A DNA stretch of 64,000 nt, taken from Oscillatoria princeps RMCB-10 (lineage in GTDB: Bacteria; Cyanobacteriota; Cyanobacteriia; Cyanobacteriales; Oscillatoriaceae). How positions within the stretch are numbered: the first letter of the stretch is position 1; each line of letters begins with the position of its first letter. A program made the translations under genes and the position numbers. The DNA is taken from positions 124,001-188,000 of the forward strand of contig JAHHHT010000013.1 of the NCBI GenBank assembly GCA_019359235.1. Direction: 5' to 3'. Below, in pieces: positions 3,672-57,215 of the stretch. The notes under the pieces were generated by a model. That model was not told where the DNA came from. It saw only the letters and a program-made list of their open reading frames with translations, and did not search any database.

Positions 3672-4937
3672 ATGAGCGAGTCGGCAACCTTAGAGCGTCC
3701 GTTGTGGGAGCGCATCCCCCTTTACTTGCAGATTTTAATTGCCCTGATTTTGGCAGTGGCTTTCGGGATTTTGCTGGGTGCCGGTCAGCCCAGCCCGGAA
3801 AATGTCGCCTTGATTAACAACTTGGCAATTCCCTCCAACGTGGTGCTGAAAGCTCTCCGCGCCCTGGCCACACCGCTGATTTTGCTGGCGGTGCTGCACT
3901 CCTTTTTGACCGCCCCGGGAACCGCGGGTAGCCGGCTGGCGAGTCTTCTGCTGACAAATACGACTGTTGCTATTATAATAGGTATTTTGGTTGCGAATGT
4001 CGTGCAACCTGGCCGCTGGGGTTACATCTCCGCACCGTCGGCTCCATCTGAAATCAGCCAAACGCTCGATCCCTGGAAACTGTTTCAGGATCTGGTGCCA
4101 GATGCGGTGCTCAAGCCTCTGGTTGACAACAATGTGATCCAGCTGATTTTCCTCGCTCTCGCTTTCGGGATTGCTCTGCGCGGTTTGAAAGCCGAGCAAA
4201 TTGCCAAGGGGAAGACAGACTACAGGGCAATTGAGCAGGGAATCTCGATGTTGTTCGAGGCGGTGATTCGCATTTTGCACTGGGTAATCACCCTAGTTCC
4301 CCTGGCAGTTTTTGGAATTGTTGCCAAAACGATTGCCCTTCAAGGTTTCGCGCCGTTTAAATCCCTGGGTGCGTTCGTGCTGGCGGTGCTGGTGGCGCTG
4401 TTTTTGCAGGTTTGCTATTACCTGCTGCGGGTGAAGTTCGGCTCTTGGGTGAGTCCGCAACGCTTGCTGACTGGCGGTTCGGATGCGCTACTGATGGCTT
4501 TTTCGACATCTTCCTCAATAGCGGCGATGCCGATTACTTATGAAGCTTTGCAGGAAAAAGTCGGTTTGCGGGAATCTTCCGCTTCTCTGGGGGCGCTAGT
4601 CGGCAGCAATTTCAACCATGACGGCACTGCTCTTTATGAGGCAATGTCTGCCCTATTTGTCGCTCAAGTTATTGGGGTCAATCTTTCCCTCCCGCAGCAG
4701 GTTACTGTGGTGCTTACGTCTATTTTGGCCTCCGTGGGTGCGGCGGGGATTCCTGAGGCGGGTTTGGTGACGATGACGCTGGTGTTCTCGGCGGTTGGTT
4801 TGCCGGTGGAGTATATCGTTTTGCTGATAACTGTGGACTGGTTTCTCGACCGGTGCCGCACTGCCATTAATGTGATGGGTGACATGACGGTTAGTTGCTT
4901 GCTGGATGGCAAGGAGCGCCAGAACGAGGTTGAGTGA
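3672..4937 (+). CDS. Dicarboxylate/amino acid:cation symporter (DAACS family)
   Basis: A 421-residue polytopic inner-membrane carrier of the glutamate/aspartate/C4-dicarboxylate sodium or proton symporter family. Visible family signatures are the serine-rich loop MAFSTSSSIAAMP, the segment NFNHDGTALYEA, and the late motif with a conserved Asp and Arg (DWFLDRCRTAINVMGD). Eight or so hydrophobic helices are evident. I chose the ATG at 3672 because GAGGAGGA lies 7 bases upstream; an in-frame TTG at 3591 would add 27 residues encoded by repeat-like DNA. The stop overlaps the GTG of the next gene by four bases, suggesting translational coupling with the now broken TPM gene. Substrate cannot be told from sequence. 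Confidence 0.92.
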   Translation: MSESATLERPLWERIPLYLQILIALILAVAFGILLGAGQPSPENVALINNLAIPSNVVLKALRALATPLILLAVLHSFLTAPGTAGSRLASLLLTNTTVAIIIGILVANVVQPGRWGYISAPSAPSEISQTLDPWKLFQDLVPDAVLKPLVDNNVIQLIFLALAFGIALRGLKAEQIAKGKTDYRAIEQGISMLFEAVIRILHWVITLVPLAVFGIVAKTIALQGFAPFKSLGAFVLAVLVALFLQVCYYLLRVKFGSWVSPQRLLTGGSDALLMAFSTSSSIAAMPITYEALQEKVGLRESSASLGALVGSNFNHDGTALYEAMSALFVAQVIGVNLSLPQQVTVVLTSILASVGAAGIPEAGLVTMTLVFSAVGLPVEYIVLLITVDWFLDRCRTAINVMGDMTVSCLLDGKERQNEVE

Positions 4938-5434: not shown

Positions 5435-5929
5435 CTACCAACCCTGTGTGCCCGGTTCTCCTTTGAATGGCCCAACAATTTCGCTCGTGATCCAGCCCCC
5501 ATAGAAGTTACCAGGCTGTGGTTTCACTAGCTCGCCCTCTACATAGCAGGCATCCATTAGCCCCGGATAAAAACTGACGCAGTTCTTTATAGCCAAGAAG
5601 GAGGGAACAGGATTAAGATAAGACCACGCTGCATTTTCCGCTTGCTTGTCACCGACTTTTACTGTATAGTACGAACCCCCTCCTTTCCACTCACACCAAG
5701 TTTCCCGCTGTGTCTTTAGCAGAGTGCCCTGCTTGATGTCCTCAAAAGGAATATAGTAGGCGGGAGGATGGCTTGTTTCCAACACTCGCTTGGCCCGATG
5801 GGTATCTGCAATAATCTCCCCATTAAAAATTACTTGGATATGCTTGGTCACTTCCTCCAAGCGAGGCGGACGGGGGTAATCCCAAACTGATTCTTGCCCT
5901 GGACCTGGGGGTATGCGTTCTGGTTTCAC
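5435..5929 (-). CDS. DUF427 domain protein
   Basis: A 164-residue soluble protein of the DUF427 family, a small beta-tent fold found widely in bacteria with no established biochemical role. Family features seen are VIFNGEIIADT near residue 34, YYIPFEDI near 78, TWCEWKGGGSYYTV near 97 and the late FYGGWIT segment near 142. Length matches the family. It stands alone and converges on the TPM relic. Confidence 0.85.
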   Translation of the reverse strand: MKPERIPPGPGQESVWDYPRPPRLEEVTKHIQVIFNGEIIADTHRAKRVLETSHPPAYYIPFEDIKQGTLLKTQRETWCEWKGGGSYYTVKVGDKQAENAAWSYLNPVPSFLAIKNCVSFYPGLMDACYVEGELVKPQPGNFYGGWITSEIVGPFKGEPGTQGW

Positions 5930-19318: not shown

Positions 19319-19510
19319 CTATGCCTGGATGATAACGTCAGTAGCCGCCAGGACAGGATGACCGGTGAGCGTGGCTTCTTGAGCGCCGGTGCCAAAGCCA
19401 GCCGCAGTGCCATTCTGGTTGTAGAACAAATTGCCACTGACAGAGTTGTAGACGATATCGGCTGCAGAAGTGGCAGCGGCGGTGTCAGTGGTGACAGTGG
19501 CTTTCCTCAG
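19319..19510 (-). pseudogene. Frameshifted C-terminal end of the RTX protein
   Basis: In the frame adjacent to that of the RTX gene, this piece encodes the usual terminal module of such proteins ([28 protein letters not shown], then a tail with LTGHPVLAATD). It overlaps the end of the larger frame at about 19499-19508, where the coding strand has GAGGAAAGCC. A one-base insertion or deletion there joins the two frames naturally. It may be a real mutation or an assembly error. Confidence 0.75.
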
Positions 19511-22500
19511 AGCCAAGGCTGCCCCCAGCGACAGCGCTCAGCGCCGTGAAAACTGTCTTGTCAAGGACAATTTTGTCGCCTTGAGCCACAACAAAGTCAG
19601 TAATGACATCGATACCAACAGCCGCACTGCTGAAGGCAGCACCCGTGTCGTAAAGGAAGCGATCGCTGCCAGTTCCTCCTGTCAGGGTGTCGTTGCCGGC
19701 ACCTCCGATGAGGGTGTCTGCCCCATCGCCACCCGTGAGGGTGTCACTGCCGGCTGCCCCATTGAGGGTGTTGTTGCCGGCATTGCCGGTGATGATGTTG
19801 TTGAGGGCGTTGCCAGTGCCGTTAATCGCGGCTGTCCCATTGAGAGTCAGGTTTTCCAGCTCAGCGCCGAGGGTGTAGCTGATAGAGGCTTGCACGAGGT
19901 CTGTGCCACCGGCAGCCGCTTCTGTTAGCACATCCGTGGCAACATCCACCACATAGGTGTCATTGCCGGTGCCGCCAACCATCGTGTCACTGCCGGCACC
20001 GCCGGTGAGGGAGTCATTGCCATCCCCACCGGCAAGGGAATCATTGCCCGCGCCGCCATTAATCGTGTCACTGCCGGCTGCCCCATTGAGGGTGTTGTTG
20101 CCGGCATTGCCGGTTAGCTGATTGTTGAGGGCGTTGCCGGTGCCGCTTATTGCAGCGGTGCCAGTCAGGGTGAGGTTTTCCAGCTCAGCGCCGAGGGTGT
20201 AGCTCAATGAGGCCAACACGGCGTCTGTGCCACCGGCAGCGACTTCTGTTACGGCATCCGTGGCAACATCCACCACATAAGTGTCGTTGCCGGTGCCGCC
20301 AACCATCGTGTCAGTGCCGGCACCGCCTGTCAGGGAGTCATTGCCATCCCCACCGGCAAGGGAATCATTGCCCGCGCCGCCATTAATCGTGTCACTGCCG
20401 GCTGCCCCATTGAGGGTGTTGTTGCCGGCATTGCCGGTGATGGTGTTATTGAGGGCGTTGCCGGTGCCGTTAATCGCGGCTGTCCCATTGAGAGTCAGGT
20501 TTTCCAGCTCAGCGCCGAGGGTGTAGCTCAATGAGGCCAACACGGCGTCGGTGCCACCGGCTGCCGCTTCTGTTAGCGCATCCGTGGCAACATCCACCAC
20601 ATAGGTGTCGTTGCCGGTGCCGCCAACTATTGTGTCAGTGCCGGCACCGCCGGTCAGGGAGTCATTGCCATCCCCACCGGCAAGGGAATCATTGCCCGCG
20701 CCGCCATTAATCGTGTCACTGCCGGCTGCCCCATTGAGGGTGTTGCTGCCGGCATTGCCGGTGATGGTGTTGTTGAGGGCGTTGCCGGTGCCCTTAATCG
20801 CGGCGGTGCCGGTGAGAGTCAGGTTTTCCACCTCAGCGCCCAGGGTGTAGCTGATAGAGGCTTGCATGAGGTCTGTGCCACCGGCAGCGGCTTCTGTTAC
20901 GGCATCCGTGGCGGCATCGATCACATAGGTGTCATTGCCGGTGCCGCCGGTCATCGTGTCAGTGCCGGCACCGCCGGTCAGGGAGTCATTGCCATCCCCA
21001 CCGGCAAGGGAATCATTGCCCGCGCCGCCATCAATCGTGTCACTGCCGGCTGCCCCATTGAGGGTGTTGTTGCCGGTATTGCCGGTTAGCTGATTGTTGA
21101 GGGCGTTGCCGGTGCCGTTAATCGCGGCTGTCCCATTGAGAGTCAGGTTTTCCAGCTCAGCGCCGAGGGTGTAGCTCAATGAGGCCAACACGGCGTCTGT
21201 GCCACCGGTAGCGGCTTCTGTTAGCACATCGGTGGCGGCATCCACCACATAGGTGTCGTTGCCGGTGCCGCCAACCATCGTGTCACTGCCGGCACCGCCG
21301 GTGAGGGAGTCATTGCCATCCCCACCGGCAAGGGAATCATTGCCCGCGCCGCCATTAATCGTGTCACTGCCGGCTGCCCCATTGAGGGTGTTGTTGCCGG
21401 TATTGCCGGTGATGATGTTGTTGAGGGCGTTGCCGGTGCCGTTAATCGCGGCGGTGCCGGTGAGGGTGAGGTTTTCCAGCTCAGCGCCCAGGGTGTGGCT
21501 GATAGAGGCTTGTACGAGGTCTGTGCCACCGGCAGCCGCTTCTGTTAGCACATCCGTGGCAACATCCACCACATAGGTGTCGTTGCCGGTGCCGCCCACC
21601 ATCGTGTCAGTGCCGGCACCGCCGGTGAGGGAGTCATTGCCGGTGCCGCCATTGAGGGAGCCATTGCCGTCTCCGCCATAAAGGGTGTCATTGCCGTCCC
21701 CGCCATCGAGGGTGTCATCGCCATAGGAGCTGTAGAGGGAGTCATTGCCGGTGCCGCCATTGAGGGTGTCATTGCCGTCCCCACCATTGAGGGTGTCGTT
21801 GCCGGCTCCGCCATAGAGGGAGTCATTGGCGTAATCCGGCCAATACGGGTACCACCAGTTCTGATCGGAGCTATCATCGATGAAGCCATTAAGGGAGTCA
21901 TCGCCGTCCCCCCCATCGATAGTGTCACTGCCCAGGAACAAAACCTCGTACATGTTCCCGAATGGGTCCTGCTGCGCCCCCAAGCAGTCGCTCGCGTACT
22001 CGCCACAGAGGGTGTCATTGCCGGTGCCCCCAGACAGGGAGCTATTGCCTGTGCCGCCGTTAACAAAGTCATTGCCGGCTCCGCCGTCGAAGTAGCCATT
22101 GTTATACAAACTGCCATACGAGTAATAACCACCAGAGAGGGAGTCATTGCCGTCCCCGCCATAGAGGGTGTCATTGTCGTCGCTGGCATTGAGGGTGTCA
22201 TTCCCCGCCCCGCCATAGAGGGAGTCATCGCCGTAGCCGCCATCAAGGGAGTCATTACCGTCGCTGCCATCGAGGGTGTCATCACCCGCCCTACCGCTGA
22301 GGGTGTCGCTGAGGGTTCCTCCTCGCAGATAGTCGTCGCCGTCTGTGCCTGTGATTTGGAACTGCTCGATGTTATTGAAGGAGAGGTAGCTGGGGTAATT
22401 CCACGAGCCACTGCCGGTGCTCGGCTCCCAGGTGTAGTAGGACCAGGTAGAGAGCGGCATAGAGAACCGGGAGTAGTCGAGCACTAGGAGGTCGGTGCCC

Positions 22501-22943
22501 CCCCCGCCATCAACGTTTTCAAACCCGTACCAATCCGCGCCACCGGGGGCTAGGGTGTCGTCGCCCTCCCCGCCATAGAGGTTGTCAGCGCCGGTTCCAC
22601 CGCTAATGCTGTCGCTGCCGTACCCGCCATCAATGAAGTTAGCGCCGTTCCCACCATCGAGGATATCATTGCCGTCCTCGCCATAGAGGATATCATCGCC
22701 GTCCTCGCCATAGAGGATATCATCGCCGGTGCCGCCATCGAGGTAGTCATTGCCCGCCCCGCCATAGATAGTGTTACGGTCTAAAGTGGAAAGGTAGAAA
22801 AGGTAGTCGTCCGGTAATGGGTAATAAAAGTAGGGGTCGGAATAGCCGCCATCAAGGTAGTCATTGCCTCCATAGCCATAGATGCTGTCAGGGTCTGACG
22901 TGCCATAGAGGTAGTCGTCCGATTCTGTGCCATATATGTTCAT
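19485..22943 (-). CDS. RTX-type calcium-binding repeat protein, probably secreted
   Basis: A 1,152-residue acidic protein made almost wholly of RTX nonapeptides (GGxGNDxLx), which form calcium-bound beta-rolls and usually mark type I secretion. The N-terminal third has irregular RTX blocks with Tyr-rich spacers. The C-terminal 650 residues are six 108-residue units, each with an RTX block followed by [20 protein letters not shown] and GTGNALNN segments. The start is firm: ATG 22943 lies 7 bases after AAGGAG. The frame ends early after SLGSEE, and the expected last 60 residues are in the next frame. No HlyB/HlyD-type exporter is in the window. A structural or surface-layer-like role is plausible but unproven. 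Confidence 0.92.
19680..21620. repeat. Six 324-bp tandem units within the RTX gene
   Basis: The same landmark (GTTTTCCAGC on the + strand) recurs at 19851, 20175 and 20499 and again at 324-base steps to about 21471. The copies are nearly identical at the DNA level, including silent positions, so the array has been homogenised recently by recombination. Confidence 0.9.
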
Positions 22944-45003: not shown

Positions 45004-45230
45004 ATTTATTTAATTTATGTTTAATCACTTATGCAAATTATCTGGGCGAAATTTGGGAGTGGGGCAGGAGTTATTGGTGTCAACTGAACCAGAAGAGGCC
45101 AAAATTTCAAGGGAGAGAGCGGCAGAGTCTTTATGCCGCTTTCTAACGGTTTTAACTGCACTCTCAATCCCAGGTTGGGGAAGTTAGTAATATTGGATTG
45201 GAGAATGTGAGCGGATTAGAGAGTCAAATT

Positions 45231-45458
45231 ATGGACAGAGAAGAGTTAGTCAGACGGTACGCTGCAGGGGAGAGGAATTTTGCCGGTATCGTTTTGAGAA
45301 ATATTAACTTGAGAGGTGCCCAGCTAGCCGGTGCCACTCTAAGCTAAGCCGATCTGTCTGATGCGGACTTGAGCGAGGCTAACCTGTTCGGTGCTAAGCT
45401 GGGGGGAGCTTTCGAGGAAACGCTCATGCCCGATGGCAGCGTGCGCAGTGGTAGCTGA
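45231..45458 (+). pseudogene. Pentapeptide-repeat gene with nonsense codon and internal deletion
   Basis: ATG 45231 opens MDREELVRRYAAGERNF, the family start shared with the gene at 47070. The frame meets TAA at 45345-45347 in the middle of the repeat (TLS-stop-ADLS), where a CAA or similar would be expected. It then continues in frame to a tail (FEETLMPDGSVRSGS) identical to that of the gene at 45597. It looks like a nonsense mutation in a gene already shortened, or fused to the tail of its neighbour by recombination. Confidence 0.8.
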
Positions 45459-46367
45459 GATATAGATATTCATCAGCGGTAGAGCGGCAGACAAAGCTAT
45501 CAGGAGCGACACCAGGCGTCAATCGAACTGGACGGTTGATGTCGAAAGGGCAAGCGTGCTATTCTAAAGAATAGAAACTTGTCTGGGAGAAATGGTATGC
45601 GCCTGAAAAAAATTCTCTTTGGTGACCTGCTCCGCCGGTATAGCGCAGGGGAAAGAGACTTTAGTAAAGTTAGTGTGGAGACGGCTTCTGGAGAAAAAAG
45701 AACTTGGGATCAAGGACAATTCAAAGGGTTGGATTTGAGCGGTATTATTCTGCGCAAGAGCAGCATCAGGTGGATTAAAGTTTTCATGGACGGGGTGATT
45801 CTGCGCGGGGCGGACTTGACCGATGTTGACTTGGGTGAGAGCAACTTCGAGGGGGCGGATCTGAGCAATGCTATTCTGCGGGGAACCAGATTTTTTCAAT
45901 CGGTTTTCAACGGAGCCAATCTCAGCAGGGCCGATTTGACGGGAGCTGCATTGGTTGAGAGTGGCTTTTTTGGCGCTAATCTGAGTGGAGCCAACTTAAA
46001 CAATGCGAGAATCAGCAGTATGGGATTTGTCTGCACTGATTTGACGGAGGCGACCTTCAAGGGAGCCCGGTTGGCAAGCGTTTGGTTTGAAGAAGCCAAG
46101 TTGCTCCGGACGGACTTCCTTGGTGCTGAATTCAGCCCGGAAACCTTTAGGGGCTCCGGAGTAAGATTTCGAGATTGCCATTTCGAGGAAACGCTCATGC
46201 CCGATGGCAGCGTGCGCAGTGGTAGCTGAGATATAGATATTCATCAGCGGTAGAGCGGCAGACAAAGCTATCGGGAGCGACACCAGGCGTCAATCGAACT
46301 GGACAGTTGATGTCGAAAGAGCAAGCGTGCTATTCTAAAGAATAGAAACTTGTCTTGGAGAAATGGT
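45409..46367. repeat. Direct duplication covering gene tail, spacer and next gene start
   Basis: The stretch from about 45412 to 45620 (tail GAGGAAACGCTCATGCCCG, spacer, ATG and first codons) is repeated almost exactly at about 46183-46391, 771 bases later. The pattern indicates unequal crossing-over between neighbouring pentapeptide genes. Confidence 0.9.
45597..46229 (+). CDS. Pentapeptide-repeat protein A
   Basis: A 210-residue soluble protein. It opens MRLKKILFGDLLRRYSAGERDF, then about 25 pentapeptides (GVILRGADLTDVDLGESNFEGADLS and onward), ending EETLMPDGSVRSGS. No signal peptide. ATG 45597 follows GGGAGA by 7 bases. About 80 percent identical by eye to the next gene; a recent duplicate. 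Confidence 0.92.
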   Translation: MRLKKILFGDLLRRYSAGERDFSKVSVETASGEKRTWDQGQFKGLDLSGIILRKSSIRWIKVFMDGVILRGADLTDVDLGESNFEGADLSNAILRGTRFFQSVFNGANLSRADLTGAALVESGFFGANLSGANLNNARISSMGFVCTDLTEATFKGARLASVWFEEAKLLRTDFLGAEFSPETFRGSGVRFRDCHFEETLMPDGSVRSGS

Positions 46368-47018
46368 ATGCGCCTGAAAAAGATTCTCTTTGGAGACCTC
46401 ATACGTCGCTATAGGGCAGGAAAAAGAAACTTTAGGAAAGTTAGTGTGGAGATTCCTTTTCCCGAATCCATGTCTTGGGAGCAAGGACAATTCAAAGGGT
46501 TAGATTTGAGCGGTATTATTTTGCGCAAGAGCAGCCTCAGGTGGGTCAGAATCTTCATGGACGGGGTGATTCTGCGCGGGGCGGACTTGACCGATGTTGA
46601 CTTGGGTGAGAGCAACTTCGAGGGGGCGGATCTAAGCCATGCCATTTTGCGGGGAACCAGATTTTTTCAATCGGTTCTCGACAGAGCCAATCTCAGCGGG
46701 GCCGATTTGACAGGAGCTGCATTGGTTGAGAGTCAATTTTTCTGCGCTAACTTCAGTGGAGTCAACTTGAGTAATGCAAGAATCAGCAGCATCGGGTTTG
46801 TCCGAAATGATTTTACGGAGGCGACTTTCCAGGGAGCCAGGTTGCAAAGCGTTTGGTTTGAAAAAACCAAGTTGCTCCGGACGGACTTCCGTGGTGCTGA
46901 ATTCAGCCCGGAAACCTTTAGGGGCTCCGGAGTCAGATTTCGAGATTGCCATTTCGAGGAAACGCTCATGCCCGATGGCAGCGTGCGCAGTTGCCAAGTA
47001 GGACGGGCGGGGATATAA
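46368..47018 (+). CDS. Pentapeptide-repeat protein B
   Basis: A 216-residue paralog of the preceding gene with the same start, spacer and repeat region. Differences gather in residues 20-35 and 120-150. The tail reads SVRSCQVGRAGI: a change just before the shared stop alters the last residues. Confidence 0.92.
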   Translation: MRLKKILFGDLIRRYRAGKRNFRKVSVEIPFPESMSWEQGQFKGLDLSGIILRKSSLRWVRIFMDGVILRGADLTDVDLGESNFEGADLSHAILRGTRFFQSVLDRANLSGADLTGAALVESQFFCANFSGVNLSNARISSIGFVRNDFTEATFQGARLQSVWFEKTKLLRTDFRGAEFSPETFRGSGVRFRDCHFEETLMPDGSVRSCQVGRAGI

Positions 47019-47069: not shown

Positions 47070-47606
47070 ATGGATGGGGCAGAATTGCTCGCCAGATATG
47101 CTGCTGGAGAAACCAACTTTATAGGAGTTGATTTGAGAGGAGCTAATCTCAAAGGTGCTTACTTATCTCTGGTCAACTTGAAAGGAGCCAATCTGAGCGG
47201 CGCTAATTTGAGTGGTGCTTACTTGGTAGGTGCCTGTCTGCAAGGTGCTAATCTCAGTTGGGCCGATCTAAGAAGGGCTATGGTGTACAATACCCAGCTA
47301 GAACGTGCCAACCTCAGTGGTGCCAACCTGCGGCGTTCCGAGCTGGGCGAGTCCAACTTGAGGAACGTTCTCCTGATTGGAGCTGCTCTTTGTGGTGCGG
47401 GGCTGATCCAAACAAGGCTATATGGTTCTGATTTAACTGCTGCTAATTTGCAACGCAGCCGTCTCGATATGGCTCGTTTCCGAGGAGCGAATCTCAGCCA
47501 CGCCAACTTGAGACGCGCTACTGGTGCCTACGTTGAAGATGCCATTCTCTGTAACACGACTATGCCAGATGGGACAATTCGCAATGACGGCGATCCGCAA
47601 AGCTGA
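47070..47606 (+). CDS. Pentapeptide-repeat protein C
   Basis: A 178-residue protein built from residue 20 on of pentapeptides (VDLRGANLKGAYLSLVNLKG), with opening MDGAELLARYAAGETNF like the pseudogene at 45231. It ends NTTMPDGTIRNDG, a weaker version of the shared tail. More diverged than A and B. Its end faces the end of the giant gene. Confidence 0.92.
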   Translation: MDGAELLARYAAGETNFIGVDLRGANLKGAYLSLVNLKGANLSGANLSGAYLVGACLQGANLSWADLRRAMVYNTQLERANLSGANLRRSELGESNLRNVLLIGAALCGAGLIQTRLYGSDLTAANLQRSRLDMARFRGANLSHANLRRATGAYVEDAILCNTTMPDGTIRNDGDPQS

Positions 47607-47691: not shown

Positions 47692-50600
47692 TTAATCATC
47701 GACATCTACGTCAAAATCAAATTCATCATACCAGTCCAATGGACTAGAAATTCCGACCTCAATTAGCTGGTCATTAGTTTCGATAGCATCCTGGATATCT
47801 TTCGGAAGATTGGAAAAGAAGTTATAGCCAGTGATATTTTCAATTTCTCTCACAGACTTTTTAGTAGTTCTCCAGTCACGAGCTTCACCAGTCAGGGGAT
47901 CTATCAGCTCTTTATTATCCATGTAAAATCCGATTGTATAGGCATCATTTCCAACATCTGGTATTCCCTGGCCTGGGGAATCCAAAACCAACATAACTTT
48001 CCAGAAATTTGCTGGAATTTTAATAACTCCATTAGTCGGGGGTAACAGTATAGGCGTCCCATCCTCTTGCTTCTTAGTTCCATGCGTACCAGCAATTATG
48101 TAAACCTCCTTGCCTTGCTTTGCCAACTTTTGAGCATAGCTCTCAGTCGCAGCCCACTGATTGTCATTGAGTTCGCTCTGCATGGGAACTATGTTTGACA
48201 GCAAATTAACCGCAACAAGATCCTTCCGGTTGCTAAATCTATCCCGGTCAGCAAAGGCAGTTAAATGTCCTCCTTCATATTGGATGCCATCAATATCTAC
48301 GTTATTCGGCGTTTTATAAGTGCCAGGTAACACTTTCGGGAACCCAGAAGGAAAGGTTTTATCTCGGTGAAGTGTACCTCGAATCACAGCCGGATCTCCT
48401 GGCTCAAACCGCCAGGATTTATTCAGTTGCCAACTCGCCCAATTAGCGGTGTTCGTGTCACCGTTGTAGGATAAGGCATACTGCGGTCTCTCAATCAGCA
48501 AGTTCTCTGCATAAGCGTTATCTGTAAAAGGCGCATTGCTGTATCTTGCCTCTCCTGGATTGCCAAACTTAAGGTGAACACTTTTGAAGGAAACATCATC
48601 AATGTAAGCTTCAGGAGCGGAGCCTATTAGCTCAAACTTAGGGATTACCGTGCGATTTTTTAACTTGTATAGCTTGGCCTCATCAATCTGAAAGGTTTCA
48701 AATCCCTTGGTTCCATAACCAAGTTTACGGGTGTCGGCTTCGTAAGCTGTATTACTGCCAGTTGCTTTTACTAAGCTAATAGTTGTTGTCACCGAGTTGC
48801 TGGCGTCATTAGCATCTTGGAGAGTGACTATAAGCACTCCTTTATCTAAAGCTGTTTCAGGAACGTGAAGGTTGAAACGGAACGCTCCCCACTCAGGCAC
48901 AACAAGAGGATTATGGATGGCTTTATTGATGCCATTAACTCCTCCAAGATGTAGGGCGCGGTTGGGTTGAGTGCCATCGTAGCCCACACCTGTTTTGTAA
49001 TGCTCGCTTAAGGTTTTAATGTCCTTCCATTCAACCAAATACTTTTGCAGCGCTTCATCTTCTACGTCACTCGCCGCAACGCCGCTGTCATTGTGGAGTG
49101 ACCAACCGGGAATAGGCTGGCTATCTATCTTGTATGCAATTGCATCAAAGTTGCCATTAAACACCGTAGGCACCGCAAAATCACCCCGCATCCCGGCGTC
49201 ATAGGTGTTGTCAAAATATACTGGAGTCCGCTCACTGGCCACCGGCGGAAGCAATGAACGCTTGTGGGAACCGCCACCCAGCACTGAATAGTACCAACCC
49301 GTGCCAATTCCTTCCCACTGGGCGTCCTCGTCACCCACCGGCTGTCCCGTATGGTTGGGCGTGTACCACGGCTTAGCATCCGGGAAATTCGGATCGAACA
49401 GCTCACCGTAACTGAAATCCCCACTGCGCCGGTGAATTGGATACCCCAAAGGATTGTCTTTGCCCCAACTCAAATCGGCTGTACCGCCATACCAAGCGAC
49501 AGTCCGCCCGTGAGAGTTGTTGCCATCCTTGACATCTTGCGTAAACCCAGCACGACTTGAGGGACTTAGGTTCCCAGACTCGTCAAACCCGCCGAGATGA
49601 ACTGATAAATCTGCCCTGTTCTCATTGGTGTCACTATCCGGCGGCAGCCATTCAGAGGGAATAATATTGACAATATCCCGCCCTCTGGGGTTGCTTGTCG
49701 TTGCCGTCTGGTAGTAATTGTCGGCAAAAGTGACATTTTCCCAAACCTGAACCTGTGGGTCAAAGTAGTTGAGGGTTTGGCTATTAAGTTCCTGAGCGAA
49801 ATCATTCGGATCTACAGTCGTCATCTGGAGATCGGGGAACATCTCTGGATGCGTATCTTTCGGGAAGAAAGTCCCCAGACGCTGGATAATCTCGCTATTC
49901 ACTACCGCACCGCGACCGAAGCCAATAAAGTGCATCGGTGAGTTGAACAGAGCGTCTTTCGGAGTGCCCTCCGCCTCGCCATAGCTTTGGTTTAATCCAA
50001 CCAAACCAGCAAACAGAGCATCGGCTGCTGCCTCAGAGAAGCCAGAATTAAGTTTGTCTGCTGTAGAATCTTGGCTCCAATCTGCAACCAGCACCAGCGG
50101 TTTGCCCAGCCCCCCATCGCCAGAGAGAACCTGCCACTCACCTGAGTCAGGTAAGTATTGCATAACTGTGCCGTCAGTGCCTTGGCCATCGATATTACCG
50201 GCAATGCTGCCAGCAATTTCCCTGGCGGAGACAAGTCCTTTTGGATCGAAAGCCATGCCGTCAGGAGTTAAAAAGGTAACGCTGCTGTAGGTTTCAGGTG
50301 CCGGTGCGGCTGCAGGTGCTAGCGGCAGGTAAAATTGACCGTCGGACTGACGGATAGTACCTCTGGTCAGACTCTTGGCTTGAACGCCCCAATAGTAGGT
50401 CTGTCCGCGAGTGAGGTTCAGAAGATCCGCAAAAGGAAATTGGTTGTTGGGAACTAATTCCTCTATGATTTTCCCGGCCACCTCCCACTGACCGAGACCA
50501 TTAGCCACATCAATGACTCTCCAAGTCGCCGTCAGGTTGCGGTTGGGATTGTAATCCGCCACACCAGAGGTAGATTTCTTCAATTTGTTTTCATCTAAAC

Positions 50601-53600
50601 CGGGTGGCAGGGGTCTTTCAACAAATGACTCTTCTCCAGGGAAAAGTCCCTCGCCCTCAGGAAATGTGCTGATAGTCAGGTTGATCTCAACAATATCAAA
50701 TGTATTGATGATTGTCCAAATCAAGATAGGAATCACTACCTCAGGTGGCGCAGGCGTCGGGACAAGTTCAGGTGCAACTACAGGTTCCTTCTTCCACTGC
50801 ACCTCTGCCAAATCCAGCCAATCCGCCGGCGCTGCACTCAGACCCCAAGACCCACCGGCAAGAGCAACCGGCCCCCGTGTGCTATCTTGAGGCACGCCAT
50901 AGGTAAACTGGTAACTCGCCCAATTCCCCTGAACAATCCCATAGTCAGCAGCAACACTAATTTCCGGATTGATATCATCCACCGGCACCCTTGACAAATC
51001 CTCCCAAGTAGCACTCTTCGCCGAACCGGCATCGAAGAAAGGAGACCCCTCCCCTCTATCCAACCCGTCAATAAGGAAATTCCCAGGATTTTCCAGAGTT
51101 TCGATAATCTCCTCTACATCAAAAACATATGTACTGCCGGTGCCATTCAAGTTCGGATAGGAAGCGTAGAGATATTTACTGTCATTTGAAAGCACAAGGT
51201 CTGCAGTCATAGCTCCGGGAATCGGTCGAGTTGCCGCCACCAACTGCGGATTAGTCAGCGGGTCTTTAATAATCCCAATATTGCCCCCAGCCCGCTTATC
51301 AGTTTGCAGGACACTGCCCTGACGGTTGCGACCGGCAACAAACGCATACCGCCCATCTGGCATCACTGTTACCGCCACCCCCTCATTGACATCAAAATAA
51401 TCATTGGCATTCCCCAAAGATAAATTTATGTATCGGGCACTGGCTGCAAAATTGAGAGGGTCATCATTCGTTACCTCAAGCACGCCGAAGCCGTTTGCGT
51501 CGCTATTCTGTTGTCCATTGGTAAACGTTAGCTTCAACGGATCTGCAGTAGCTGCCACCCCGTCCGCCCCGTTGTTTGTCAGAACCGCCCCAATCTGTTC
51601 GTGCCACTTGCGCTCGTTCTGATTTGGAGCAGTGGGCCGGTCTTGCCCATCAATATTAATGACATAAATATAACCATTCGCCCCTGTGACAAAAAGCTTC
51701 CGCCCGTCACTGCTAATAGCCATCTTCCGCCGCCCAGAGGACGCTGGATTCACCGCAATAGTCTGAATTACCTGATGATAGGTATCCGAGAACGGATTGA
51801 TATCCAGTATGTAGATATTTCCCCTCGCACTGTCGGCAATGTAGGCGTATTCATTGCGCGAGTTAATAGCAATTGACCAAGGAACAGCACCGGCAGGCAG
51901 ATTAATCGGATTAATATCCGGAATATCCGGTTGAGTGTCCACCTGCTGCAACACTATTGGATCTACTAACGCCACGCGCCCCGTACTCTCCAAAACCACA
52001 TAAACGCGAGTTCCATCACTCGTTACAGCGCTCGCTCGCGGCCTATCTATTCGGTCAGGAGTGCCGACCGGAATGCTGGCGAGGAGCAATTTACTGCTGT
52101 TGCTGGCTGACACTACTGATTCTGGGTCAGTGCCGTCGAGAACCGCAAGCCGGTCTGCCCCTCTTTGAGCAGCAAAAATGTACTCAGCGCCCTGATTTAT
52201 CCGGATATTATTGCTGTCGTACTCGACTTCTTCATACACCGGCTCTGTGCCATTTTGACCGGCCAAATGGTTCTGCCGGCGCGTCAGGACAATGCGCGAC
52301 GCACCCAGAGGCACAGTATTGGGCACCTTAACCGCCACCTCAAAGCGATTGTCCCCCAACTCTCGGCTCAGATTGGGCAAAACCGTCCCCTCATACGCCG
52401 TATCCCCGACATAAAATTTAGCAATCAAATCCTCAAACCGGCTGCCAAGAAGGTCACTCCCGCTATTCACCAGCACATTACTGCCGGTCAGAAAAAGAAC
52501 CGGCTGATTGTTCTCGAATGCCTGATTGTTCTCATCCGCAAACTTCAGCTCAGCTTCTTGCAGCACCGGCGGTGCCGTCGGGTCAGACTCAGCCGGTGCC
52601 GGCATATTCAATGCCGCCGAAAAACTAGCAATCCCATCCTGATTGCGCTGCACACCCACCTCTGTAATCACCGGCAGTCCCACCGTCGGCACCGCCATCA
52701 CCTTCACCGACGAGATATCATAAGAAACCGTCAATGCTACATTGGCACTGCCAAATTGGTCAGGCATCAGCAACTGACCGATTTTTCCCAGCGAGTCCAT
52801 CACGCCATAAAATGCAATCGGCAAATTATAATTTACCGTCAGCTGACCCTTGACAAGCGTGACACTTTCGCTTTCTCCCGAATATGCGACTATATATTCT
52901 CCCGGTCTGATGATACCAGGCCACGGCGGCGAAGACGTGCGAATCATGCCATCAGCACCCACTATGCCAGACTCTTCTTGCAGCCAAATAGGATTCCAGG
53001 TGCCGGTTTCATCCGGAAGCGCACCTTTACGCATAAAATAAACTTCAGTTCCCGCCGGCAACCCAGCCGGTGCGGGAATTGCCAGCTGCGCCGGCACCTT
53101 CATCGGGTCATCCCCAGCATCTAAATTGAACGCACCGGCAATCTCGAATCCTTCTGGAACAGGAAGCGATAAATCCTCCCGAGTCAGCGGAGTCAAACTG
53201 ACAGTTGTGTCCTCTTCTAGAGCGCCAGGAGCCACCATGACCATTGAGCCATCAGAAGCTCGCACCACACCCCCAGTATCTCCCAAAGTTGCCGGTCCAA
53301 GCTGCGGATTTTGCACCCGGATTGGAATAACTTCCACCGCTGAACCGTTGCTAACCGTTACAGTAGCGTCTCCCGACTTCAATGCGGTAACTAACCCATC
53401 CTCACTCACACTCAAAACCGATGGGTCACTCACCTCATATCGCGTCCCCGACTCATCAGTATTTAAGTCAGGCGAATTGGGCAATTCGTTTACTTTCACC
53501 GATAATTGCCGCGTCCCCCCAACCGGCAGAGAAATCGCATCGGGATAAGGATCTAACCCATAGATTTGAGCCAGCGCCACACTAAATTCTACTTCACTGA

Positions 53601-54978
53601 CATCACTGCCTGAATCATTGGTCGCCGCCGGCACAAGGGTGAAGCGAATCCCCTCAAACCCCGACACATTGCCATTTTCATCTATCGCCCGCAAATAAAG
53701 GGTGTGACTTCCCTCTGACAGCGCCCCGCCGAATATTTCCTCTAAGGCGTTGCGGTCTAATGAAAACGTTCCATCCTCATTGAGCCGGCTGGCAATCTCA
53801 GTAAAACTCTCCACCGGCATCCCCTCAAAACCGGCACGCAAGCTGAAAATCCCGCTGACATCAATAACACTCCCCGCAATCGCCGGGTCAGAGGTAATCC
53901 CATCTGCAGTGTCCTCACCCGTATCGTTCTCTAGATATGCCGCAATTTCAGGGGGTTCGGTGTCCGCTGAATTGATTTCATCTAAAATTTGGCCCCCCAA
54001 AACTGTCCCGCGCCAGTCTAGGGATGGTACAATTATATTATTTACCGATGGGGCTGTGCCAGTCGCACCGGCGACCTGAAACATCACATCGTTGTAATCC
54101 CTATCCGCACCGGCATTCACCTGCATATCTTCAAAAGCAAAAGCATACCCCTTGCCGGTGACATCAGCTATTTGCCCAGAATTGAAAGCATCCCTGGGGT
54201 TAGATGTCGCTAATGAGAACAGGGGGCGGCGCGTGCCGGTCAGTGCCGGATTGTTAAAGACATCCTGTATCCTATTCCGGGGGGCTAAAATAATCCCAAA
54301 CTCATCCCCCGGATTCATAGATACTGTCTTGATGCCCTGGTATGTCCCCTTGTTCCAATTTTGCGGCTCAGCCCCCAAAATGCCGGTCAACTTAGCGCCT
54401 TCCGTGAAGTCAGAGATTCCCACATGCCCCTCTGAAGAATTACTCAGCGCCCGCCGCGCGGCTTCTTTGACAAAAGCACTGTGATCGGTCAGGAAAGCCG
54501 ACATCCCCTTCAGGTTAAAGATGCCTACCTCTCCCTCATAGAAGCCGCCATCAAACAGATAACTTATATCGACTTTCCCCGTTGGGCCTACTTTAAACAC
54601 TCCCGACTCAAAGGGGCTGTTATTGCTGGGGGCTAGGGGCTGACCTGTGAGCGGGTCAGTGTTGGTTTTGGGACTCACCTCCAGAATATAGTCTGTGTCG
54701 CCGCTCACCCGAGAGATTTCAATCGAGTAGTCCCCCGCAATTAAGGCATCGGCATTAATCGCTTCTGGACTTGTTCCACTATTAGATGATGTGCGCAGTA
54801 CAGAGCCGGTGCTGTCCAGCAATTTTATATCGGCATCGGCGCTCAATTCGCCCACAGACAGACTGAAACTGCCCGGTGCGTCCAGACTAAGCCGGTAAAT
54901 GTCTGTTGGGTCGGCACTCAAGACATTGCCGATATACGTTGAACTGTTGTCTAGCGAGCCAATATTGAAGTCGGACAT
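47692..54978 (-). CDS. Giant modular extracellular protein with C-terminal nuclease-like domain
   Basis: A 2,428-residue acidic protein. In order: a PPC-like domain (residues 10-105), a DUF4114 domain (about 125-305, with AGADRDYNDVMF), a Big_2-like Ig domain (about 470-556), a ZU5-like block (DGSMVMVAPGALEEDT, about 571), a YVTN-type beta-propeller (about 930-1285), an alpha/beta-hydrolase-like region (about 1625-1800) whose nucleophile elbow reads GFGRG where GxSxG is expected, a carbohydrate-binding-like region (about 1920-2135), and a DNA/RNA non-specific endonuclease-like domain (about 2190-2428; EGGHLTAF, then NIVPMQSELNDNQWA). It lacks a classical signal peptide. ATG 54978 follows GAGG by 7 bases. 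No partner gene lies downstream on its strand. Secretion route and role are unknown. Confidence 0.88.
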   Translation of the reverse strand: MSDFNIGSLDNSSTYIGNVLSADPTDIYRLSLDAPGSFSLSVGELSADADIKLLDSTGSVLRTSSNSGTSPEAINADALIAGDYSIEISRVSGDTDYILEVSPKTNTDPLTGQPLAPSNNSPFESGVFKVGPTGKVDISYLFDGGFYEGEVGIFNLKGMSAFLTDHSAFVKEAARRALSNSSEGHVGISDFTEGAKLTGILGAEPQNWNKGTYQGIKTVSMNPGDEFGIILAPRNRIQDVFNNPALTGTRRPLFSLATSNPRDAFNSGQIADVTGKGYAFAFEDMQVNAGADRDYNDVMFQVAGATGTAPSVNNIIVPSLDWRGTVLGGQILDEINSADTEPPEIAAYLENDTGEDTADGITSDPAIAGSVIDVSGIFSLRAGFEGMPVESFTEIASRLNEDGTFSLDRNALEEIFGGALSEGSHTLYLRAIDENGNVSGFEGIRFTLVPAATNDSGSDVSEVEFSVALAQIYGLDPYPDAISLPVGGTRQLSVKVNELPNSPDLNTDESGTRYEVSDPSVLSVSEDGLVTALKSGDATVTVSNGSAVEVIPIRVQNPQLGPATLGDTGGVVRASDGSMVMVAPGALEEDTTVSLTPLTREDLSLPVPEGFEIAGAFNLDAGDDPMKVPAQLAIPAPAGLPAGTEVYFMRKGALPDETGTWNPIWLQEESGIVGADGMIRTSSPPWPGIIRPGEYIVAYSGESESVTLVKGQLTVNYNLPIAFYGVMDSLGKIGQLLMPDQFGSANVALTVSYDISSVKVMAVPTVGLPVITEVGVQRNQDGIASFSAALNMPAPAESDPTAPPVLQEAELKFADENNQAFENNQPVLFLTGSNVLVNSGSDLLGSRFEDLIAKFYVGDTAYEGTVLPNLSRELGDNRFEVAVKVPNTVPLGASRIVLTRRQNHLAGQNGTEPVYEEVEYDSNNIRINQGAEYIFAAQRGADRLAVLDGTDPESVVSASNSSKLLLASIPVGTPDRIDRPRASAVTSDGTRVYVVLESTGRVALVDPIVLQQVDTQPDIPDINPINLPAGAVPWSIAINSRNEYAYIADSARGNIYILDINPFSDTYHQVIQTIAVNPASSGRRKMAISSDGRKLFVTGANGYIYVINIDGQDRPTAPNQNERKWHEQIGAVLTNNGADGVAATADPLKLTFTNGQQNSDANGFGVLEVTNDDPLNFAASARYINLSLGNANDYFDVNEGVAVTVMPDGRYAFVAGRNRQGSVLQTDKRAGGNIGIIKDPLTNPQLVAATRPIPGAMTADLVLSNDSKYLYASYPNLNGTGSTYVFDVEEIIETLENPGNFLIDGLDRGEGSPFFDAGSAKSATWEDLSRVPVDDINPEISVAADYGIVQGNWASYQFTYGVPQDSTRGPVALAGGSWGLSAAPADWLDLAEVQWKKEPVVAPELVPTPAPPEVVIPILIWTIINTFDIVEINLTISTFPEGEGLFPGEESFVERPLPPGLDENKLKKSTSGVADYNPNRNLTATWRVIDVANGLGQWEVAGKIIEELVPNNQFPFADLLNLTRGQTYYWGVQAKSLTRGTIRQSDGQFYLPLAPAAAPAPETYSSVTFLTPDGMAFDPKGLVSAREIAGSIAGNIDGQGTDGTVMQYLPDSGEWQVLSGDGGLGKPLVLVADWSQDSTADKLNSGFSEAAADALFAGLVGLNQSYGEAEGTPKDALFNSPMHFIGFGRGAVVNSEIIQRLGTFFPKDTHPEMFPDLQMTTVDPNDFAQELNSQTLNYFDPQVQVWENVTFADNYYQTATTSNPRGRDIVNIIPSEWLPPDSDTNENRADLSVHLGGFDESGNLSPSSRAGFTQDVKDGNNSHGRTVAWYGGTADLSWGKDNPLGYPIHRRSGDFSYGELFDPNFPDAKPWYTPNHTGQPVGDEDAQWEGIGTGWYYSVLGGGSHKRSLLPPVASERTPVYFDNTYDAGMRGDFAVPTVFNGNFDAIAYKIDSQPIPGWSLHNDSGVAASDVEDEALQKYLVEWKDIKTLSEHYKTGVGYDGTQPNRALHLGGVNGINKAIHNPLVVPEWGAFRFNLHVPETALDKGVLIVTLQDANDASNSVTTTISLVKATGSNTAYEADTRKLGYGTKGFETFQIDEAKLYKLKNRTVIPKFELIGSAPEAYIDDVSFKSVHLKFGNPGEARYSNAPFTDNAYAENLLIERPQYALSYNGDTNTANWASWQLNKSWRFEPGDPAVIRGTLHRDKTFPSGFPKVLPGTYKTPNNVDIDGIQYEGGHLTAFADRDRFSNRKDLVAVNLLSNIVPMQSELNDNQWAATESYAQKLAKQGKEVYIIAGTHGTKKQEDGTPILLPPTNGVIKIPANFWKVMLVLDSPGQGIPDVGNDAYTIGFYMDNKELIDPLTGEARDWRTTKKSVREIENITGYNFFSNLPKDIQDAIETNDQLIEVGISSPLDWYDEFDFDVDVDD

Positions 54979-56168: not shown

Positions 56169-57215
56169 TCACTCAAAAACCTCCCGCAACAATTCCCGGT
56201 GAATCAGCGATCGGTCAGCGATAGATTGGAGCTGCGCCGGCGAGAGGGCGTCGCCATTAGCGTAGTGTTCCAGCCAAGTTTTGGTAATCGTCCTCGGGTC
56301 ATCTGGCAACTGGGGCAATTCCCATCCGGGCATATCCAATTCTGCCATCAGCTGGCTGACTTTGGGGTCATAGCTGAGCGCGAAACACCGGCACTCCTCC
56401 GCAGCAGCCATAATTAGAGCGTGCAGGCGCATTCCAACCGCCATTTCCACGCCGCGAAACACGCCTTTGAGCTCTCTGGGATCTTCGAGAGAGAGGATTT
56501 TGCTAACACCGGCGAGTTGGGAGTGGATAGACTCGGCGATTTCCAAATCTTGAGATGCCTGAAAAGGCAGGAGCAAAATGAAAGTGTCGGTTGCTTTTTG
56601 GAAGTCAATCAGGGCGCGGGTGAGGGTTTCCAGGCGTGCCGGTGTCAGTTGCGGGTGCTTGCGCAGCGTCACCGCCACGCGGGGTGCCGGCAAGTCCCAC
56701 AAACCCGGCACCTGCTTGGGTTCCAGCGCCCAAACGGGATCGGGAGCGAAATAGCAGGGGATTTGCCAGTCTGAGAGCAAAGCCGCTGAAGCGCGATCGC
56801 GCACGCTCACCGCCGCGCAGCCGGCAAACACTCGTCTAGCCATCTGGCGAGTCAAAGAGCGCTTCAGCGGGCCCACACCCTGCGCCCAAGCAATCGTTTT
56901 CAAGCCCAGCCGCTGAGCCAGTCCCATCAAGCCGGCATAATAGAAGGGGCTGAGTGCGCTGGTGGCGTCTTGGATCAAACTCCCCCCGCCCCAGATAAAG
57001 GCATCTGACTGGCGCAGAGATCGCAGCACCGGCATTGCATTCATGCGAGGGACCGCAGCCACCCCGTAGCGCTGGCGGGAAGCCGCTGGATTGCCAGAGA
57101 GAACCACCGGCGTCACATGGTCTGGTAACATTTGCAACAGGGAAGCCAGCAAAGCCTCATCGCCCCCATTGCCCAGGCCGTAATATCCGCACAACACTGC
57201 TCGCATCTGCCCCAT
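56169..57215 (-). CDS. csaB: Polysaccharide pyruvyl transferase CsaB
   Basis: A 348-residue enzyme that adds ketal pyruvate to cell-wall-linked polysaccharide, which in other bacteria anchors S-layer (SLH-domain) proteins. Signatures: CGYYGLGNGGDEALL (residues 9-23), WGGGSLIQD (about 75), AWAQGVGPL (about 108), SVRDRAS (about 136) and the late GMRLHALIMAAA (about 255). ATG 57215 is preceded by GAGG at 7 bases. It suggests pyruvylated surface glycan in this organism. Confidence 0.95.
   Translation of the reverse strand: MGQMRAVLCGYYGLGNGGDEALLASLLQMLPDHVTPVVLSGNPAASRQRYGVAAVPRMNAMPVLRSLRQSDAFIWGGGSLIQDATSALSPFYYAGLMGLAQRLGLKTIAWAQGVGPLKRSLTRQMARRVFAGCAAVSVRDRASAALLSDWQIPCYFAPDPVWALEPKQVPGLWDLPAPRVAVTLRKHPQLTPARLETLTRALIDFQKATDTFILLLPFQASQDLEIAESIHSQLAGVSKILSLEDPRELKGVFRGVEMAVGMRLHALIMAAAEECRCFALSYDPKVSQLMAELDMPGWELPQLPDDPRTITKTWLEHYANGDALSPAQLQSIADRSLIHRELLREVFE

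Follow-up and report, generated by a model that had tools for sequence, protein, structure and literature searches.

The stretch of DNA considered here, referred to as the window, comprises 64,000 nucleotides of Oscillatoria princeps RMCB-10 (contig JAHHHT010000013.1). The element under study is a gene for a large modular protein carrying a nuclease domain at its C-terminal end, together with the pentapeptide-repeat protein (PRP) genes next to it. An initial annotation, made from the sequence alone, had described a single frame of 2,428 codons with a nuclease-like end, and this observation has been confirmed. As listed below, a stem of several domains is followed by a pre-tip module and by the nuclease domain, here called the tip, while three PRP genes and the remnant of a fourth all point at the putative toxin gene. 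The first of these PRPs has been modelled as a beta-helix (pLDDT 96.4).

47692..54978, minus strand: 2,428-residue modular protein with a nuclease tip, putative polymorphic toxin
54712..54906, minus strand: PPC domain, residues 25-89 (PF04151, 27.9 bits, cut-off 25.9)
54067..54318, minus strand: DUF4114 domain, residues 221-304 (PF13448, 69.4 bits)
53344..53544, minus strand: Big_2 Ig-like domain, residues 479-545 (PF02368, 30.4 bits)
51682..52044, minus strand: beta-propeller-like stretch, residues 979-1099 (TIGR03866, E value 0.001, a weak match below the cut-off)
48589..50301, minus strand: pre-tip module, residues 1560-2130, with a hydrolase-like part containing GFGRG and a mostly beta part; travels with tips in relatives
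47764..48588, minus strand: NucA-type nuclease tip, residues 2131-2405 (profile, fold and catalytic-residue match)
49133..54978, minus strand: stretch sharing 93.7% DNA identity with the C20 paralogue
about 50815 and about 52921: points where the similarity of the C60 and C49 copies, respectively, collapses (BLAST against the window copy)
47070..47606, plus strand: 178-residue PRP and candidate immunity protein, whose convergent gene ends 85 bp from the toxin stop (PF00805, 118.4 bits)
46350..47018, plus strand: second PRP (ATG probably at 46368)
45579..46229, plus strand: third PRP (ATG probably at 45597), a near-duplicate of the second
45198..45458, plus strand: interrupted remnant of a fourth, leader-type PRP gene

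Shared stems and divergent tips

Four Endonuclease_NS loci are present in the genome (8.49 Mb, 60 contigs), with a stem common to all four copies and similar DNA upstream. In BLAST comparisons with the window copy, identity amounts to 94.5% up to nt 4164 for C60, 93.7% up to nt 5846 for C20 and 92.1% up to nt 2058 for C49, beyond which it drops to about 50-65%, and the tips are 29-43% identical in the six pairwise comparisons. The window copy is the only unbroken frame, the other three being split into pieces of open reading frame (ORF) by assembly error or decay.

The window tip matches the Endonuclease_NS, or NucA-type, family profile and the beta-beta-alpha-metal fold, its nearest solved relative being NucA of Anabaena sp. 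PCC 7120 (PDB 2o3b, 1zm8), which strongly supports the nuclease fold first proposed for it. The catalytic set is kept as H2238, N2271 and E2279, the asparagine of the tip being N2271 and not the residue to which this role had initially been assigned. For NucA, H124 is taken here to be the catalytic histidine, and N155 and E163 the metal ligands. Among homologous tips the histidine is kept in 80 of 81, the asparagine in 70 and the glutamate in 78, with an aspartate in two more. NucA R122, part of the DRGH motif, is replaced by G2236 in the window tip, and R167 by a glutamine; the former position is an arginine in 52/81 tips and a lysine in 13/81, the latter an arginine in 30/81. Judging from these tips, both are variable positions and no absolute requirement of the family.

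No Pfam match was obtained for the pre-tip module (window 48700-50301), and an alpha/beta hydrolase identity of residues 1560-1800 is plausible; the third residue of the GxSxG motif is a glycine in 18 and a serine in 15 of 33. The module has been detected in 10 of 386 cyanobacterial genomes sampled across the phylum, as well as in 71 named loci of a species collection, where a NucA-tip match was found in 61. The ten remaining loci comprise two with an ART-like tip (L157 and L162), two where the module belongs to giant non-nuclease proteins (L211 and L216) and six that are broken or contig-limited (L182, L196, L199, L202, L209 and L214). The ART-like tip lies at the same module border in L107 (the record of L157) and in L162 (PF18760, 30.8 bits, cut-off 31.2), with shorter copies lying behind the first in L107. 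Tandem arrays occur in several loci, where stemless tips alternate with PRPs (four tip-PRP pairs in L173, three in L175), and stemless orphan tips are present in L155, L173 and others.

Behind the ART-like tip of L162 (5817-7184), small Cys-rich ORFs and an OGFr_N-type protein have been observed, with no PRP; the OGFr_N match was obtained in L107 (3215-4858), and the Cys-rich ORFs and OGFr_N protein are candidate partners of the ART-like tip. The module is found in giant non-nuclease proteins of L143 and L144 as well as L211 and L216, including a Planctomycetota metagenome-assembled genome (MAG) and Aurantiacibacter. A full module with tip and PRP occurs in L205 (the same as L051, G017), a record titled Chloroflexaceae MAG. 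As its genome is placed in the same order as the window, the bin is perhaps mislabelled or contaminated. The PPC-DUF4114 module is also N-terminal in other giant proteins, and in L055 (3895-9966) it starts a subtilase with P-domains and SBBP repeats, in the manner of a reusable N-terminal module.

Pairing with pentapeptide-repeat genes

The initial annotation had considered a polymorphic-toxin-like protein without an adjacent immunity gene. The first part of this proposal is sustained by the diverse C-terminal tips that comparison of homologs for swapping has revealed on a shared stem, by the ART-like tip on the module and by the orphan tip arrays, whereas the second finds no support, as a convergent PRP gene ends 85 bp past the toxin stop and 73 of the 81 distinct tips show the same layout. 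A PRP gene lies within 1.3 kb 3' at 76/81 tips, being codirectional at the other three, and the distance between tip and convergent PRP has a median of 142 bp, with 60/73 within 300 bp. These counts cover 84 locus ids and 92 tip matches, from which 7 fragments and 4 duplicates were subtracted; earlier loci whose records are covered by others in this set were left out (L038, L040, L043, L045-L047, L049, L051, L056-L059, L061, L063, L135, L137, L138 and L140). Inspection by eye of the five tips missed by the script revealed an undetected convergent leader PRP in L159 and L176, a PRP-like piece truncated at the contig end in L184 and, in L172, one tip with a codirectional PRP-like gene and another with no PRP and an inserted ORF, presumably a transposase. 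The script's 76/81 has been retained throughout.

As a control, 20 neighbourhoods of stand-alone NucA were surveyed, covering about 7 kb per side where the contig allows. No convergent PRP was found at any of the 20, one having a codirectional 656-residue PRP-containing protein, and the difference from the modular tips is reflected in a Fisher P of 5e-15, a value overstated by the common descent of the loci. A convergent PRP is likewise absent from both ART-tipped loci, and no PRP occurs at the three Endonuclease_NS proteins without pre-tip module (L065-L067). NuiA has been found in 21 of 100 relatives and lies convergently, within 44-169 bp, beside stand-alone NucA in 6/20 controls (G015, G022, G055, G083, G085 and G090); none of the NuiA matches listed is near any of the modular tips listed. 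Beside modular tips, the PRP holds the position and orientation of a proven inhibitor beside free NucA, and no other single observation speaks as strongly for its role. NuiA itself was considered as partner of the window tip and rejected, the genome's one match lying on another contig (G000:C29:126633).

A total of 201 PF00805 matches occur in this genome, so the mere presence of a PRP has not been used as evidence, and the possibility of plain genomic background has been addressed through a leader motif, gene orientation and the stand-alone NucA controls. Searched as DNA, the leader motif has 25 matches in the genome against none in a reversed control, 15 of them lying no more than 6.3 kb away on the 3' side of the four tips. 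Since the pattern was derived from PRPs near these same tips, the fair test lies in other genomes, where the survey of 81 tips was made. Scattered leader PRPs were also considered as partners of other toxins and this was set aside, as their neighbours looked ordinary among those listed (a survey that leaves out L097-L103 and parts of L096 and L104). Six leader-type PRP genes with no nuclease have been observed in L060 (G002:C4), resembling the C20 and C39 clusters, possibly as an orphan immunity island.

With a mean net charge of -11.1 (n=76), tip-adjacent PRPs are acidic in the way expected of a DNA mimic; per 100 residues their charge is -5.2 (n=76) compared to -1.6 for scattered PRPs (n=23; P 1e-5). 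Charge as proof of DNA mimicry has been dropped for the window, whose own PRPs are not acidic.

Both the presence and the divergence of the adjacent PRP gene follow the tip, as is expected of a polymorphic toxin. In the 57 loci where all three elements (tip, PRP and module) are present, the distances between tips are correlated with those between PRPs (r 0.454), and remain so with module distance held in a partial Mantel test (r 0.397; both P 0.0005). L153 and L192 are close in tip (distance 0.19) and in PRP (0.29) though their modules have diverged (0.50), while in L150 and L154 the modules are close (0.14) and the tips (0.63) and PRPs (0.62) far apart, distances which match those that an exchange of cassettes would predict.

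Antisense-nested genes

Of the 73 convergent PRP genes, 22 are traversed on the opposite strand by the continuing toxin frame, codon lying opposite codon in all 22. These nested loci are as follows, the case in L166 ending at a contig edge.

L134, L142, L048, L148, L149, L151, L153, L166, L174, L177, L179
L186, L190-L195, L197, L200, L203, L207

Since a PRP counted as nested only where an ORF passes through it, zero stops hold by definition. In the corresponding register of non-nested PRPs there are 4.66 stops per 100 codons, with only 1/51 open, for which reason 22/73 open would not be expected. Big_9, PKD and Calx-beta domains continue in frame past the PRP in all five nested loci tested, and in the plasmid record of Calothrix sp. 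PCC 7716 one coding sequence (13237-44220) spans a nested PRP that is itself unannotated. Variation at the three PRP codon positions is 0.395/0.295/0.524 in nested and 0.336/0.251/0.502 in non-nested genes, the third being highest in both; substitutions therefore track PRP codon positions, which indicates a real gene under protein-level constraint in either arrangement. Apart from the avoidance of stops, the same test has shown no constraint acting on the frame of the other strand. The strand opposite a nested PRP reads as a Ser/Thr/Gln-rich linker, and it seems somewhat probable that, in a branch of the family, the two strands of one DNA stretch encode a toxin linker and the matching antidote, with the PRPs as a new class of nuclease immunity.

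In L134, the giant gene is followed by genes for a PPIase-domain protein, a C39-ABC exporter and HlyD. The same pair or an exporter is found in L153 (a call resting on its first residues only), L186, L191 and L203, that is, in 5/14 nested loci examined when L134 is counted, which points to type I secretion in this branch.

A candidate polymorphic toxin with probable PRP immunity

It is considered likely that the window gene, as one of four family members, encodes a cyanobacterial polymorphic toxin with PRP immunity. A long exported stem (PPC, DUF4114, Ig-like and propeller-like) and the conserved pre-tip module would carry an exchangeable C-terminal tip, here a putative NucA/EndoG-type sugar-non-specific nuclease that, once inside a competing cell, would cleave both DNA and RNA through the His/Asn/Glu metal mechanism of NucA. 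Cytoplasmic PRPs encoded tail-to-tail beside the tip would give self-protection, probably by binding the nuclease and blocking its active site, perhaps as a nucleic-acid mimic. Tip and PRP would be transferred as one cassette, and extra and orphan PRPs would extend immunity to kin tips. The sequence evidence for the tip-PRP pairing is strong, and we infer that the PRPs are immunity proteins, probably of a new class; the export route, delivery into cells, nuclease activity and inhibition by PRPs are likewise predictions from sequence.

The protein could instead be a nuclease secreted for scavenging or for biofilms, in the manner of Anabaena NucA, its PRP being a NuiA-like catch against leakage with no warfare involved. 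NucA is indeed the nearest solved relative, NuiA occupies the same convergent slot beside part of the stand-alone NucA genes, and such nucleases are described as believed to serve nutrition and as sometimes bactericidal (PMC4890671); the same source reports that Synechocystis PCC 6803 lacks a NucA homologue. This is unlikely in view of several hallmarks of conflict systems: the tips vary while their stems are homogenised, orphan tips without a stem form arrays with PRPs, a locus can hold several PRPs, and an ART-like tip occurs on the same module. It is also rather improbable that the PRPs are regulators, structural proteins or hitch-hikers in a mobile cassette and not inhibitors: their abundance in the genome, the leader PRPs found elsewhere and the non-acidic PRPs of the window would agree with such roles, whereas the contrast between NucA tips and both stand-alone NucA and ART-tipped loci, the NuiA-type slot and a co-divergence with the tip beyond that of the pre-tip module speak for a specific partnership. 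As for the nested frames, they could be a side effect of PRP codon usage, with the toxin ORF open by chance and the real gene ending earlier, and the absence of stops is partly a product of the definition; the scarcity of open registers opposite non-nested PRPs, the PKD and Calx-beta domains beyond the PRP and the single annotated coding sequence in PCC 7716 render this very improbable.

Several points weigh against the polymorphic-toxin reading itself. Only one alternative tip type has been found, from two related MAG records, and three of the four copies in the genome are interrupted reading frames. The window tip may be a weak or altered nuclease, given that it lacks the DRGH arginine and R167, and its gene has no linked exporter, the nearest homologue (58% identical) lying on another contig. 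Immunity genes are usually codirectional and downstream, unlike the convergent PRPs described here. Leader-type PRPs occur in 92 of 100 relatives, many sitting away from toxins among those listed, which indicates that the family has other roles, and the window's three PRPs carry net charges of 0, +6 and +3. Finally, the loci are related by descent, so that P values overstate their independence.

Among known systems, NucA-NuiA shares the nuclease fold, the catalytic His/Asn/Glu and, in relatives, a convergent gene for an intracellular inhibitor beside that of the nuclease. The present system differs in that the nuclease forms the tip of a very large modular protein, with variation at several active-site arginines, and in that a PRP and not NuiA is encoded convergently. 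The Tox-NucA polymorphic toxins have the conserved stem, variable C-terminal toxin, orphan cassettes and neighbouring immunity genes in common with the present loci (Zhang et al., 2012, PMC3482391), which are set apart by their stem, convergent orientation and antisense nesting. The Tox-NucA table there gives Imm36, SUKH and NTF2 as partners and lists no cyanobacteria, and the word "pentapeptide" does not occur in the paper (PMC3482391). HetL (3du1), Np275/276 and Qnr/MfpA resemble the PRPs in their leader helix and right-handed quadrilateral beta-helix, and Qnr-type PRPs are described as protecting gyrase from poisons (PMC7897471), whereas the proposed target here is a secreted nuclease. The tagAB/tagB pentapeptide genes of type VI secretion islands also lie beside effectors, yet in the text available their function is listed as unknown and no pairing with NucA tips appears (PMC3942780). 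In a library without subscription papers, which does not establish absence from print, no paper was found pairing PRPs with NucA-type toxins as immunity. Haemagglutination/TPS or RHS repeats, the marks of CdiA/Rhs, were absent from the eight Pfam families at an E value of 1 or better, and the window protein had no match in the defence-system library of a PADLOC scan.

Cyanobacteria hold a quarter of known pentapeptide-repeat proteins, whose roles there are almost completely unknown according to a 2021 review (PMC8145042). One PRP subgroup would gain a concrete, testable job in self-protection against NucA-type toxin tips. If true, a beta-helical repeat protein would join the known ways of stopping non-specific nucleases, a toxin family would emerge in filamentous and colonial cyanobacteria from proteins now annotated as hypothetical, and the nested loci would be a rare case of two functional proteins from both strands of one DNA stretch.

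Elsewhere in the window, a 1,152-residue protein at 19485-22943 has GGxGxD-like repeats by eye (RTX-like), and a CsaB-like polysaccharide pyruvyl transferase, also recognised by eye, lies upstream of the toxin gene on the same strand (56169-57215).
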